From: an uncultured Victivallales bacterium
GTDB taxonomy: Bacteria; Verrucomicrobiota; Lentisphaeria; Victivallales; UBA1829
DNA length: 64,000 bases
Assembly (NCBI GenBank): GCA_944390795.1
Contig: CALXRI010000011.1
Coordinates: 1-64,000, forward strand
Direction: 5' to 3'
Within the stretch, counting starts at the first letter, position 1. Each line of letters begins with the position of its first letter. Both the position numbers and the translations under genes were made by a program. Positions 17,886-46,852 of the stretch are shown one piece after another. The notes under the pieces were generated by a model. The model had not been told where the DNA came from. It was given only the letters and a program-made list of their open reading frames with translations, and ran no database searches.

Positions 17886-19398
17886 GTTTCTGAAATCCGT
17901 TGTTTGCCTGACGCTTTTCCTTGCGTGCATTCTCTCCTTCGGGGAGACGGTCCGCCTGACCGTGATTCAGACGACGGACATCCATGCCCAGGTAAGCGGG
18001 CGCGGTTCGCCCGGAATCGCGCGTCTGGCCTCCGTCGTCAAAGCCGAGCGCCGCGCCGCCGGCGGGAGCGGCCGCGTTCTCCTGATCGACTGCGGAGACC
18101 TGTTTCAGGGATCTTATCAGGCGACGCTTGACAGGGGGGCGTCGCTGGTATCCTGCCTGAATCATCTGGATTACGACGTTTTTGTCCCCGGCAATCACGA
18201 CTTCGATTTCGGGACGAAGATTCTGGCGGAACGTCTGAACGGACTCCGCGCCACGGTTCTGGCATTCAACCTCAGACTCGGAACCGTTCGTCCGGGACGG
18301 ATTCTGCCGTGGAAACTGTTCGAGAGGAATTCTCTGCGGATTGCCGTGATCGGCATGACTTCGCCGTTTCTGTTCTCCTGGCTGGCGGGCGGACAGACGG
18401 AAGGACTGGAAGTTGCCGATTATCAAACGGAACTGGCGCGGGTCATTCCCGAAATCATGGCGTGCAATCCCGATCTGATCGTGCTTGCCATGCATAACGG
18501 GCGCTTCATGCCGTCGCGTCTGGAACAAGGCGGGAAGAAGCGCATTTCCGCCTATTCGTTTCTCCGGAAATACCCGCAGATCGATCTGGTTCTGGGCGGG
18601 CACTCCCATCAGGAGAACGCGGGGGTGAAAATCGCTTCCTCATGGTACATGCAGGCTCCTCCGCGAAGCGGCGGGGCGGCCGTCGCCGAGATTGTCTACG
18701 ACAGGACGAAGCGGCGGATTGTCTCTTTGCAGACGCGCATTGCGCATGCCGCCGATGCGGAACCCGATCCGGAGATTGTCTCCATGCTCGGACCGCTGAC
18801 GGAGCGGAGCCGGGAAAAAGGAACGCGGCGGATCGCACGTCTCGCTTTTTCCTTGGAACCTTTGAAAAAGTCTGAAACGGAGAACCGCCTGAGCCGCATG
18901 TTCGGCCGGGCGATGCTCCGGGCGACCGGGGCGGAAATCGCGTTTCACGGCACCTTGAGTTCATATCGGAGTCGGCCGGGCGTTCTGCATGCTTCGCAGG
19001 TCTATCTGCTCGCGCCGTATGAGAATCTGATTGCCGTGCTGGATGTCACGCCCTCGGAATGCCGTGCGATTCTGAAGGAGCAGCTTGCGAAACGGCGTTC
19101 CGGCTCGTTTCAGGCGCCGTGCGGCATTTCCTTCCGGACGGATCGTGGCGGATCGCTCTGCTCCGGACTCTTTCTTGACGGGGAAACGGAGGAATGGAAG
19201 GACGAGTCGCGGACCGTGAAAATGGCAGTGAGCGGCTATGCGCTCGCAGGGGCGGGCGGCCGTTTCCCTGTGCTGAAAGCGATTGCCTCGAAGAAAAAAG
19301 TTGAATTTTCCGGGGCGGACGTCCGTTCCGCGCTTGAAAAATACCTGGCGGAGGAATATCCTTGTGGCACTGCCGGAAAAACGGACAGGGGAAAGTGA
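17872..19398 (+). CDS. Secreted 5'-nucleotidase/2',3'-cyclic phosphodiesterase-like metallophosphatase
   Basis: About 508 residues, the size of UshA-type 5'-nucleotidases. An N-terminal signal peptide (KREFLKSVVCLTLFLACILSFGE) precedes the calcineurin-like phosphatase domain with its metal motifs TTDIHAQ, DCGDLFQGS, GNHDFDFG, MHNGR and GGHSHQ. A C-terminal 5'-nucleotidase domain follows (about 330-495, with YENLIAVLDVTPSE and SGYALAGAGGRFP). It should dephosphorylate nucleotides or related esters in the periplasm. The start is ATG 17872 or 17866, both inside the end of the DUF89 gene (14-20 nt overlap); no clear Shine-Dalgarno is seen, so coupled translation is likely. Confidence 0.87.
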   Translation: MSKREFLKSVVCLTLFLACILSFGETVRLTVIQTTDIHAQVSGRGSPGIARLASVVKAERRAAGGSGRVLLIDCGDLFQGSYQATLDRGASLVSCLNHLDYDVFVPGNHDFDFGTKILAERLNGLRATVLAFNLRLGTVRPGRILPWKLFERNSLRIAVIGMTSPFLFSWLAGGQTEGLEVADYQTELARVIPEIMACNPDLIVLAMHNGRFMPSRLEQGGKKRISAYSFLRKYPQIDLVLGGHSHQENAGVKIASSWYMQAPPRSGGAAVAEIVYDRTKRRIVSLQTRIAHAADAEPDPEIVSMLGPLTERSREKGTRRIARLAFSLEPLKKSETENRLSRMFGRAMLRATGAEIAFHGTLSSYRSRPGVLHASQVYLLAPYENLIAVLDVTPSECRAILKEQLAKRRSGSFQAPCGISFRTDRGGSLCSGLFLDGETEEWKDESRTVKMAVSGYALAGAGGRFPVLKAIASKKKVEFSGADVRSALEKYLAEEYPCGTAGKTDRGK

Positions 19399-19402
19399 GA
19401 AA

Positions 19403-19816
19403 ATGATGCGCTGCTTTATGATTTTCATGCTGATGCTGCTTTTTTGCGGCTGTTCCGGAACAGCCGGGCTTTCCGAATCCGGAAAACTTTCCGGGGAGGA
19501 GGAGAAGGCGGTTGTTTCGCATATCCGCACCTTTCTCCGCCGTTCAAAGATCAAACTGAAGCCGGCGGAGCGGGCGTATGTCATGACGCATGATCCGGTG
19601 TTCAATGTCTCCTATACGGGGTGGAAGGAAGGCTCCCTGACGGTGCGCTGGTCCTTCCCGCATCAGCGGAGTCTGGTTGTCACGCGGACGGGCATGCTGC
19701 TTTCCAACGGCAAGGCGGACTGGACGGTCCGGATCACGACGGACAAATCGACGCAGCTTGTCCCGCAGAACTTTTACGGCGCTCATGGCGAGGAATTGGC
19801 GCTTCCCCCTCTGTAA
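19403..19816 (+). CDS. Small predicted lipoprotein of unknown function
   Basis: 137 residues, starting 4 bp after the 5'-nucleotidase stop. A short hydrophobic signal ends in a lipobox-like LFCGC, so Cys17 is the likely lipidated residue. The mature part (about 120 residues) has charged helical sequence followed by strand-rich sequence (VSYTGWKEGSLTVRWSF). No family is recognised. Position and spacing make it the last gene of the dnaA-PHP-DUF89-nucleotidase run. It may assist or anchor something in the envelope, but nothing in the sequence says what. Confidence 0.7.
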   Translation: MMRCFMIFMLMLLFCGCSGTAGLSESGKLSGEEEKAVVSHIRTFLRRSKIKLKPAERAYVMTHDPVFNVSYTGWKEGSLTVRWSFPHQRSLVVTRTGMLLSNGKADWTVRITTDKSTQLVPQNFYGAHGEELALPPL

Positions 19817-19847: not shown

Positions 19848-20940
19848 AAAAATTGCGAAGCAACGGAAAAAATAATTTGCCCTGCAAATTATGCTTCGTG
19901 CTCTCCTCTCAGTCCTGGTGCGGTCCAGCTGCGCAAGCCGGCCGCCGGAGGCGGGGGATTTCGCGCTTCGCGCGCCCAGCGCTTCGCCGCTGGATCACGC
20001 CAAGGGCCGAGGGCCCTTGACCCCGCGAAAAATGCCGGCGCATTTTTCCGTAAAAAAATAATTTGCCTTGCAAATTATAATTCGTGCAGGACTTTCAGTC
20101 CTGCCGCGGTCCAGCTGCGCAAGCTGGTCGCCGGAGGCGAAATCTCCTCCGGCGGCGGTTCCAACCGCTAAAGGACGAGAAGCGAAGCTTCGAGAGCCGC
20201 CGGTACAGTGTGCAACCTCGGGAAAATGTCCGGAGCTCTCGGTATTAAAAATATATTGGAAGAAAGTCCGGGAAGAAAAATGATACGGGGACGCCCGGAG
20301 CTCTCGAACTTTTCCAGCGGAAAAGTTCTCGTCACTGAGCTGTTTGCACCGCTCCGGGCGGGGGATTTCGTGCTTTGCACGACCAGCGATTCGCCGCTGG
20401 ATCACGCCAAGGGCCGAGGGCCCTTGACCCCGCGAAAAATACAGACGCATTTTTCCGTAAAAAAATAATTTGCCTTGCAAATTATGATTCGTGCAGGACT
20501 CTCAGTCCTGCCGCGGTCCAGCTGCGCAAGCTGGTCGCCGGAGGCGAAATCTCCTCCGGCGGCGGTTCCAACCGCTAAAGGACGAGAAGCGAAGCTTCGA
20601 GAGCCGCCGGTACAGTGTGCAACCTCGGGAAAATGTCCGGAGCTCTCGGTATTAAAAATATATTGGAAGAAAGTCCGGGAAGAAAAATGATACGGGGACG
20701 CCCGGAGCTCTCGAACTTTTCCAGCGGAAAAGTTCTCGTCACTGAGCTGTTTGCACCGCTCCGGGCGGGGGATTTCGTGCTTTGCACGACCAGCGATTCG
20801 CCGCTGGATCACGCCAAGGGCCGAGGGCCCTTGACCCCGCGAAAAATGCCGGCGCATTTTTCCGTAATAAGAAAATTGCAAAGCAACTGATCGGTTCTGG
20901 CGCAGACCGGCCGCCGGAGGCGGAATCCCCGATACGGGTG
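19848..20940. repeat. Tandem 407-bp hairpin-chain repeat array
   Basis: About 1.1 kb without a credible gene. A shortened first copy (about 19872-20047, lacking the middle of the unit) is followed by two nearly identical full units, about 20058-20464 and 20465-20871 (period 407 bp). Both flanks carry a related ATTGC(A/G)AAGCAAC hairpin (about 19853 and 20876). Each unit is a chain of short perfect stems. In unit 1 these include ATAATTTGC/GCAAATTAT (20058-20078), GCAGGACT/AGTCCTGC (20086-20104), CCAGCT/AGCTGG (20111-20127), CGCCGGAGG/CCTCCGGCG (20129-20154), GAACTTTTCC/GGAAAAGTTC (20306-20328), TCGTGC/GCACGA (20368-20382), CCAGCG/CGCTGG (20383-20400) and CAAGGGCC/GGCCCTTG (20408-20426). The short open frames inside differ in phase and are not thought to be genes. 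Confidence 0.9.
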
Positions 20941-20961: not shown

Positions 20962-21819
20962 TCATTGTAGGCGGAGGGAGCGGTATTTCTGCGGCGGCAT
21001 CCGGAAATGTTTTCTGAACTGGCGGCAGAAGTAGTTGCTGTCGGAAAAGCCCGTTCTGTCGGCGATCTCTCCGATGCTCAGATCGGTGTTGAGCAGGAGC
21101 ATGGCGCCTTTTTTCAGGCGCAGAGTGATCAGATATTCGTTCGGGGCGCAGCCTGTGCACTGTTTGAACATTCTCGTGAGAGTGCTTTCCGAAACCATGA
21201 GCGCACGGGCCATTTCCGTACGTGTCCAGCGCTTTTCCGAATGTTCCGCAAGACGGTTGATAAGCTCGTTGAGCGCGGCGGATGTTTTTTTCCGAGGGGG
21301 GAGACGCCGGGCCGCAATGCAGCGCCCGAGAAATACCGTCAGGAGCATGAAATGCGCGGCCATGGCGAGCGGAAAATATTCCGCTGCCTGCTCCTGTTCC
21401 GTCTCAATGCAGCGGAGAATTTTCATGGCTTCAGCCAGTTCGTCTTTTTCCAGATGGAGGATGTTCCGGCTGCGCGCTTCCGGTTCAAGGCGGAAAAGGG
21501 AAGCGGTCGCCGGGTAGCGGCAGAATGCCTGGAGGGGGTTGCTGAGTTCACGCGGATCGAACATGAGATTGCAGAGGGCCAGATCGTGCAGATTGGTATA
21601 ACCGTGAACGGTGCGGTTGTGAATCAGAAAGACATCGCCTGCTTCAATTGTGCGATGCTCTCCGTAAATGACATGTTCGCCGTATCCGCGGAAAACGACG
21701 ACCAGTTCCGAAAAATCATGTTCATGAAGCTGATACTCCTCCTGCGGATCACGCCGGATCAGGCGCAGCGGAAGGCGTTTGTCCGCAAGATATTCCGATT
21801 TGAAAAGCTGTCCTGGCAT
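20962..21819 (-). CDS. AraC-family regulator, probably of rhamnose metabolism
   Basis: 285 residues. An N-terminal cupin sugar-sensing domain (LHEHDFSELVVVFRGYGEHVI, AGDVFLIHNRTVHGY) and a C-terminal double helix-turn-helix (about 185-280, with MARALMVSESTLTRMFKQCTG and IADRTGFSDSNYFCRQFRKHFRMPPQKYR) match the RhaS/RhaR type. It is divergent from L-rhamnose isomerase, so rhamnose is the likely effector, probably as an activator. ATG 21819 is chosen; a TTG at 21852 would place the start inside the -10 of the best promoter. AAGG lies 9-10 nt upstream. Confidence 0.88.
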   Translation of the reverse strand: MPGQLFKSEYLADKRLPLRLIRRDPQEEYQLHEHDFSELVVVFRGYGEHVIYGEHRTIEAGDVFLIHNRTVHGYTNLHDLALCNLMFDPRELSNPLQAFCRYPATASLFRLEPEARSRNILHLEKDELAEAMKILRCIETEQEQAAEYFPLAMAAHFMLLTVFLGRCIAARRLPPRKKTSAALNELINRLAEHSEKRWTRTEMARALMVSESTLTRMFKQCTGCAPNEYLITLRLKKGAMLLLNTDLSIGEIADRTGFSDSNYFCRQFRKHFRMPPQKYRSLRLQ

Positions 21820-28558: not shown

Positions 28559-29344
28559 TCAGCGGGTGTTCAGGAAAAATTCTCCCTCGGCGGGGTTTGC
28601 GGTCCTGACTGCGAGTTTATACGCCATTCCCGCATAGGAAACGATATCCACATGACCGTCGGCATACGTCACGTTCATCCGGCGGTTATGGGAAAAACGG
28701 TAGTAGTTGATGTTGGACAGATGAAACTGATTCCGTGCGGTCGGACTTTCGCTGCCTTCTCCGAATGCGGCCAGCCGTGAGGGAAACCGAATCCCGGATA
28801 ATTTGATTTTCGTCCACAGGTTTGTGTTCATGAAGGCGTTGCAGAAACGGTCCTGCGCATAGCGGTAGTCATTTGTGGCATTGGCGATATAGCAGTATTT
28901 GTATTCCGCACTGTTGACCGCAAGCGCTTCCGGACAGACGAAAATCGCGGCGGGACGTCCCGCATTCTCCCCGATGCTTTTCGCCATCATGAGGTGATGC
29001 ACAGAATTCTTTTTAAGAACGCTTCCCGTCGATTCGTTGAAATTTCCCTCGGAAGGAGAGATGATGTCGTTCAGATACTCAAACCAGGCGTAATCCTGCG
29101 TGCCGTTGCCGTCGTGGAATTTCCGGCCGGGGTCAAGGTTGGGCGGCGTGAAATCCGAGTTGTCCAGACAATACTGGGCGCACAATACGCCGAACTGTTT
29201 CATGTTGCTTTTGCACTGAACTGTTTTTGCCGTCCTTTTCGCATTGCTCAGAGCGGGCAGCAGCAGGGCGGCGAGAATGGCGATGATCGCTATTACAACA
29301 AGAAGCTCTATCAACGTAAAATTCATTTTCTTCCACATCGGCAT
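28559..29344 (-). CDS. Prepilin-like protein with H-X9-DG signature
   Basis: 261 residues. A class III prepilin leader, [19 protein letters not shown], carries the Glu at position +5 after the cleavage site, followed by the amphipathic helix [20 protein letters not shown]. The globular part has paired cysteines and ends with a [12 protein letters not shown] signature (H-X9-DG), characteristic of the very numerous pseudopilin-like proteins of Lentisphaerae and Planctomycetes. It is probably processed by a prepilin peptidase and exposed at the envelope. It starts 18 bp after the stop of the GntR-GH38 gene, with AAGGA upstream, so both are one operon. A role in capturing or secreting factors for glycan use is inferred only from location. 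Confidence 0.88.
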
Positions 29345-46117: not shown

Positions 46118-46852
46118 ATGAAAAAAGCGTCCGTGCACCATGACCGTTTCACATTGGTGGAACTCCTTGTTGTCATTGCGGTTATCGCGATTCTGGCGGG
46201 ACTTCTTCTCCCGGCGCTGAACAAGGCGAAACAGATGGCCAGTTCCACATTCTGCTCCAACAACCTGAAACAGCTTGGCGTGGCGCAGAGCATGTACATG
46301 GGGGATTATCAGGATACGGTGATCACCACTTATTTCAGCTCGGACGATACAGACGACCGCTGGTTCAGCATGCTGTACGGGTATCTGAAAACTCCGAAAG
46401 TGTTCCGCTGCGCACAGGATGTCGCCGTCCGATATCTGAACAGCCACCCCCTGTCCTATACGCTGAACTCCAGCGACACCATCCGCTCCGCGGACATGAC
46501 CCGCTGGCCTGCCGGCAGGCGAATCACGAAGATAAAAAACACCTCCTGCATCCTGTTTGCCTGCAATATCAACAGCGCGCTGCCCGAGGGCGCGCAGAGC
46601 GCCCTTCTGATGCAGCGGAACGGGACATTCTGGACAAACGCAATGTGCAAGGGTTATACGGAGACCCATGTGGGACCCTCCATGCGGACTTACGGAACCC
46701 ATCACGGGGGAGGATCCAATTTTTCTCTCTGCAACGGAGGCGCCGCCGCTTACATGTATTCCGCTTTCATGGGGCATTTCGACAATCCCGCCGGACGGAA
46801 GAACGCTTCCATCCGGGTATGGTGCATTGATCCCGACAATGTCTCTTTCTGA
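46118..46852 (+). CDS. Prepilin-like protein heading the LacI-controlled locus
   Basis: 244 residues. Prepilin leader [19 protein letters not shown] with Glu+5, then the amphipathic [20 protein letters not shown]. The C-terminus carries a variant H-X9-DG signature in which the Asp is replaced by Asn ([14 protein letters not shown]). GAGGAAAG lies just before ATG 46118; the ATG at 46085 directly follows the operator and lacks a ribosome-binding site. It is the first gene of the locus, 41 bp before the secreted LamG-like protein. As at 28.6 kb, a pseudopilin accompanies a large secreted glycosidase, suggesting a surface or secretion role in glycan use. Confidence 0.87.

Follow-up and report, generated by a model that had tools for sequence, protein, structure and literature searches.

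The hairpin-rich block described here is an array from a large, dispersed family of non-coding DNA elements that consist of chains of small hairpins. It lies in a 64,000-nucleotide stretch of the genome of an uncultured Victivallales bacterium (the window), and we consider it probable that the family to which it belongs is a dispersed, non-autonomous repeat that spreads via a hairpin state of its DNA.

Structure of the array and of the family

The initial annotation, made from the sequence alone, had described a tandem 407-bp unit composed of hairpin chains, and this was confirmed. Tandem Repeats Finder gave a period of 407 with 2.3 copies and 97% matches at 19950-20867, and 5 of 407 positions distinguish the two full units (Table 1). 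In the 1.16-kb array, 23 hairpins reach a stem length of 6 bp or more, whereas 50 sequences simulated from the region by a first-order Markov model had 1.7 on average and 5 at most. Folded as a single strand, one unit gave z = -6.5 as RNA and -7.0 as DNA relative to dinucleotide shuffles.

Some details of the annotation had to be amended. About ten perfect hairpins had been proposed per unit, and while the chain itself stood, the pairings at 20744-20761 and 20434-20455 are mismatched; a shortened copy, taken to be third and older, is indeed present with its middle missing, but it stands first of the three; and the extent of the array now includes a hairpin remnant that runs on to about 20930. 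The proposed compensatory change, T20371-A20379 against C19964-G19972, is correct. The claim that the sequence is non-coding holds because 407 is not a multiple of 3 and the open reading frames across the array are chance ones with no Pfam match, which also rules out a coding origin of the array.

Table 1. Features of the array and its surroundings (window positions unless a locus is given; R1, covariance model of the right arm)
Feature	Position	Strand	Remarks
Upstream gene, small lipoprotein-like ORF	19364-19816	+	stop 44 bp before array
Short first unit, 186 bp	19867-20052	+	left arm joined directly to right arm, middle missing
Left arm, short unit	19867-19953		h3 stem disrupted
Right arm, short unit	19959-20051	+	R1: 108.3 bits
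Full unit 1, 407 bp	20053-20459	+
Left arm, unit 1	20055-20142	-	R1: 45.3 bits, E 1.5e-9
Right arm, unit 1	20366-20458	+	R1: 107.1 bits
Full unit 2, 407 bp	20460-20866	+	98.8% identical to unit 1
Left arm, unit 2 (h4,h3,h2,h1)	20462-20549	-	R1: 44.6 bits, E 2e-9
h4-left hairpin	20465-20485		ATAATTTGC ctt GCAAATTAT; hairpin scan
h3-left hairpin	20493-20511		GCAGGACT ctc AGTCCTGC; hairpin scan
h2-left hairpin	20518-20534		CCAGCT gcgca AGCTGG; hairpin scan
h1-left hairpin	20536-20546		CGCC gga GGCG; alternative pairing CGCCGGAGG/CCTCCGGCG, 20536-20561
Inner hairpins	20562-20598		GCGGT tcca ACCGC and GAAGC gaa GCTTC; hairpin scan
Inner hairpin	20713-20735		GAACTTTTCC agc GGAAAAGTTC; hairpin scan
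Inner hairpin	20744-20761		GAGCTGT..GCACCGCTC; decayed in window, perfect (GAGCGGT ttga ACCGCTC) in G002 orthologue
Right arm, unit 2	20773-20865	+	R1: 111.6 bits; covariation; [TCGTGC ttt GCACGA][CCAGCG attcgc CGCTGG]atcacgc[CAAGGGCC gag GGCCCTTG]accccgc[GAAAAATGC cggc GCATTTTTC]cgt
Degenerate left-arm remnant closing array	20872-20930	+	ttgcaaagcaa ... cgccggaggcgg; covariance-model match 20811-20890, minus strand, 20 bits
AraC-family regulator gene	20962-21819	-	convergent with upstream gene; ends 84 bp after array
Broken h3-left hairpin, occurrences	window 19867-19953; L103:3021-3104; L073:3870-3950; L081:6548-6628; L009:1829-1912

Each arm consists of four hairpins in about 90 bp, in a fixed layout that runs from the inside outwards as h1, h2, h3, h4: h1 (TCG..CGA) abuts h2 (CCAGC.., with a conserved loop), and a short accgcg-like linker, h3, a 6-7 nt linker and h4 follow. 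In a full element two such arms, whose hairpins follow the same order, flank a spacer in mutually inverted orientation, which makes the element a palindrome composed of palindromes. The left arm is a diverged homologue of the right arm, inverted, given that the right-arm covariance model matches the left arm's reverse strand with E ~1e-9.

Copies read together with their flanks fell into module types. The A type measures about 400 bp and comprises a pair of inverted arms together with a spacer and additional inner hairpins; from the middle outwards its left and right stems are TCGCC/TCGTGC in h1, CCAGCT/CCAGCG in h2, GCAGGACT/CAAGGGCC in h3, and AATTTGC or AAAATTGC/GAAAAATGC or GAAGAATGC in h4. 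Short A forms lack the middle, and an internally deleted form like the short unit of the window also occurs at L049:9435-9667. The B type, of about 150 bp, carries the left core of A between GCGATGC..GCATCGC and ACCGCGCATGC..GCATCGCGGT, always with a TTYATT-like sequence at both flanks, and a third kind of chain, GTGAGGGC, GCAGGTGT and CGGCAAG followed by TCTTTTTT, adjoins some copies. The same core is found in at least two element types, including in inverted or swapped order, and the arms are swapped or inverted at L051 and L056. Genera g10 and g48 also have inverted arm pairs, made of other stem sequences; in g10 an arm is either single (in one case 4 bp downstream of a stop codon) or part of an inverted pair, and G109 has inverted pairs with entirely different stems in the same layout.

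Several smaller features were seen beside the arms. The three-hairpin chain, in full [GTGAGGGC tccgc GCCCTCAC][GCAGGTGT gag ACACCTGC][CGGCAAG cagg CTTGCCG]TCTTTTTT, adjoins elements at L059:10140-10515 and L061:9385-9762, and its end resembles an intrinsic terminator. A broken h3-left, in which GTGC-TCTCCT or TTTCCT replaces GCAGGACT, recurs at different loci in three species (Table 1), as if the broken module had itself been exchanged between loci. Short tandem repeats of gcgaagcacgaaatcttttat follow an arm at L128:100-235 (G026) and L196:470-560 (G019), and were apparently multiplied from the foot of hairpin h1.

Covariation and genomic position

A covariation test, which the annotation had named beforehand as a refuting check, was run and brought no refutation: the covariation is real. 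In a close set of 48 copies, 8 of 29 pairs had changed on both sides (49 cells, against 12 in shuffles). In a wide set of 121 distinct rows the figure was 26 of 29 (590 cells; shuffles gave 148, 0/500), and pairing fell from 96% to <40% when the partners were shifted by one column; given that the wide alignment (127 rows) was fitted to the model's structure and that its rows are related, these numbers lean towards structure. Covariation was weak in the left-arm core by itself, since the copies hardly differ there and the h3 stem of 7 of 44 is broken in an identical manner.

The copies also occupy particular sites. The annotation had advised checking whether copies sit at gene ends, and all 21 scorable sites in the bacterium's own genome are at gene 3' ends, with 17 in co-directional, 4 in convergent and none in divergent gaps; in co-directional pairs the element follows the upstream stop by a median of about 10 bp. 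Divergent gaps make up 39 of 153 intergenic gaps overall as against 0 of 21 element sites (Fisher P = 0.002), in a count that covers 456 kb in 21 stretches, of which 20 were picked for the copies they contain, with genes from a home-made caller and comparison gaps all of at least 100 bp. At least one copy does lie between divergent genes, in the congener G003, beside the window's rhamnose isomerase gene.

Sites just after stop codons, with none between divergent genes in the own-genome sample, strong covariation, strong RNA folding of the unit and the conserved h2 loop and linkers would all suit arms that act as a structured RNA (a 3'-UTR stabiliser, terminator or attenuator), selected on one strand and spread through usefulness at mRNA 3' ends. 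We reasoned that a strand kept as RNA should tolerate G-T pairs (G-U in RNA) but not A-C. Helices 1-3 of the wide set, helix 4 being excluded because it is force-fitted in elements that lack it, contained 2172 Watson-Crick, 10 G-T and 14 A-C cells and 424 double-changed pairs, whereas a control of twelve tRNAs in the same loci contained 132 Watson-Crick, 8 G-T and 1 A-C. The G-T share is therefore 0.5% of arm pairs as against 6% in tRNA stems (Fisher P 4e-6), and since G-T is almost absent and no commoner than A-C, the structured RNA that the annotation had offered as one option is disfavoured. Both arms, moreover, occur in both orientations within one element, the window has no Rfam match at gathering thresholds, a terminator scan gave no excess (1 found, 2.1 expected), and the family is missing from most genomes of the order. 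We regard a structured RNA as unlikely, while a side effect of the arrays on mRNA 3' ends is possible.

The pair counts favour palindromy that is kept at the DNA level, or made by copying one stem side from the other, and template switching is a documented route to simultaneous compensatory changes (PMC8794818). Conceivably, then, no dedicated element or function is involved, and small inverted repeats were perfected by template switching and multiplied by recombination. Perfect stems, double changes and few intermediates fit template switching (PMC8794818), and module swaps and homogenised units are likewise in keeping with such a by-product, but a fixed layout with linkers and an h2 loop conserved across families of the order needs recognition or selection, and the family is missing in many relatives; we think this origin very unlikely. 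Entropy is 0.32 bits in the h2 loop and 0.31 in the linkers, as against 1.34 in the remaining loops, which vary freely. Given this conservation the sequence is also read by something, and the pattern suggests that a protein or a copying step may read h2 and the linkers.

Distribution, turnover and proposed mobilization

A search of the own genome with the 407-bp unit, as the annotation had advised, gave 72 matches. The four-hairpin arm model R1 found 60 copies there and 85, 134 and 3 in the congeners G002, G003 and G001. A different genus gave 46 and 35 copies in two genomes, and a different family 57 and 54, again in two; the genomes are uncultured drafts, and given that many copies lie at contig ends in the own genome (G000), G002 and G118, these counts are lower bounds. 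The arm is present, patchily, in 32 of 120 genomes of the order, and a search of 194 genomes of the phylum gave matches in this order only. Searches of viral contigs with the exact core pattern, and a distant search of phage and plasmid records, gave no match. At L048:9648-10067 two small genes that resemble a phage lysis module flank an A-type element, which may mean that the family enters prophages.

Dozens of copies per genome and the conserved h2 loop and linkers could indicate a site for the binding or packaging of a chromosomal protein (with a nucleoid, gyrase-like or segregation role) that the cell maintains. However, G001 manages with 3 copies in the same genus, copies are missing in most genomes of the order, and array length changes freely between species, and we hold such a site to be most improbable.

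Comparison of related genomes revealed turnover at shared sites. The site of the window array holds the same two units in G002 and a different insert in G003, and its tandem units have been homogenised species by species, with 14 columns fixed per species and 1 specific to a unit. Sites L048, L049 and L061 are empty in G001, array lengths at shared sites differ between species (131/377/0 and 381/596/271 bp), and at L045:5663 two tandem B copies in G000 correspond to an A segment inside a B copy in G002. Several sites carry copies common to G000 and G002, and much of the set is therefore vertically inherited. Among the empty sites compared, none showed a clean insertion with target duplication, their flanks being too diverged or altered, so that transposition is an inference. 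At L053:10910-11069 a tRNA gene with its terminator-like hairpin is followed immediately by a B-type copy; the counterpart in G002 has TTTATT at the junction and no copy, and is the nearest to an empty site among those seen. Inverted arms bracket 14.7 kb in G019 and G026, and the segment is collinear in the two genomes, with no inversion.

Intergenic palindromes that form inverted doublets and tandem clusters, as REPINs do (PMC3116915), raised the prospect of a classical REP/REPIN family mobilised in trans by a RAYT or IS200-type Y1 transposase. The TTYATT at both ends of B-type copies, with hairpins near each, is reminiscent of IS200/IS605 ends, and Y1 genes (PF01797, the family of IS200 and RAYT) are present in 61 of 120 genomes of the order. 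Against this, Y1 matches are absent from the high-copy genomes G003, G019 and G026 and limited to a fragment in the own genome, while G001, which has an intact Y1 gene, has 3 copies of the arm; Y1 transposases do not track the repeats. The GTAG tag was found in 0 of 48 arms and CGTC in 6 of 48, on the 3' side only, and IS200 ends were rejected as a source of the B-type ends because IS200 flanks have no similarity to them. Given the absence of the tag and the failure of Y1 to track the repeats, the family cannot be filed as a RAYT-mobilised REP, mobilization of this kind is distinctly unlikely, and no fitting partner was found for the array where the annotation had suggested looking for a tyrosine transposase. 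A 570-aa ORF between inverted arrays at L050 was also considered as a transposase and set aside, as on reading it appears to resemble a membrane protein.

Relation to known repeats

Of the options that the annotation had listed, the data support a composite REP/BIME-like mobile palindromic element, which is dispersed, modular, intergenic and at gene ends, and varies in copy number and array length between species. REP and BIME elements are likewise intergenic, palindromic and of high copy number, form mosaic clusters, lie mostly between co-directional or convergent genes, and have stems that differ by complementary changes (PMC3733652). In contrast to REP, a single palindrome of 20-40 bp, the unit here is a chain of four to six hairpins in fixed order, with no GTAG tag, no matching transposase and nearly no G-T pairs; in REP stems G-T pairs are often observed, and CGTC REPs also lack a known transposase (PMC3733652). 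As in REPINs, the replicating unit is two inverted palindromic arms with a spacer, and near-identical units form tandem clusters (PMC3116915). Here, however, an arm contains several hairpins in a chain, its sequence differs from that of its partner, and there is no RAYT neighbour or tag.

BOX elements are mosaics of exchangeable modules that form stem-loops between genes. By description, the exchangeable intergenic modules of the family are like those of pneumococcal BOX and other modular small repeats (PMC3049150; reviewed in PMC2229807), but here every module forms a short hairpin by itself and the arms are homologues of each other in inverted orientation. Chains of short hairpins that invade intergenic DNA, scattered and with no known enzyme, are also found in the repetitive hairpin-forming elements of sponge mitochondria, which are related to fungal double hairpin elements (PMC2800124); those are mitochondrial, and we claim no homology. 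The terminal inverted repeats of MITEs have a parallel in the two arms, here as hairpin chains instead of plain repeats, and as regards a MITE-like target-site duplication, the B type is always flanked by its TTYATT-like sequence and the empty-site flanks compared were too diverged or altered. No literature on repeats in this bacterial group was found among the papers searched. We file the family as a REP/BIME/REPIN-like mosaic of a new multi-hairpin design, real and specific to the order, with Watson-Crick-only covariation.

On the reading that we prefer, of a non-autonomous repeat spreading via a hairpin DNA state, copies would arise and spread through single-stranded or cruciform DNA. Recognition or copying would act on each hairpin as DNA, and the two sides of a stem would thereby change jointly, either when a template switch occurs during copying or when a whole hairpin is replaced. 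Recombination between look-alike hairpins would then make, lengthen and shuffle arrays, which may survive mainly just after stop codons, the least harmful place. More tentatively, the family might be a previously undescribed class of mobile DNA, in which paired hairpin chains would be recognised as folded single strands by a non-RAYT enzyme, with shape and not sequence being heritable and one hairpin arm copied from the other.

With dozens of copies per genome in one order, and stems that change while pairing stays perfect and passes through no wobble intermediates, the family is a large natural data set. Two questions become testable with it: by what route REP-like elements spread in the absence of a RAYT, and what share of compensatory hairpin changes is due to DNA copying as opposed to RNA selection. 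It also carries a caution, in that strong covariation alone would pass the family as a new structured RNA, which the balance of G-T and A-C contradicts. The repeats sit, in addition, at many contig ends of these gut genomes.

A separate set of coding repeats, resembling a prepilin-type N-terminus ([17 protein letters not shown]...LLPALN), was seen in the window at 29244-29321 and 46147-46227 and again at L043:7396, L047:8771, L055:4335 and L061:17628, which suggests that the own genome may contain a large pilin-like gene family.
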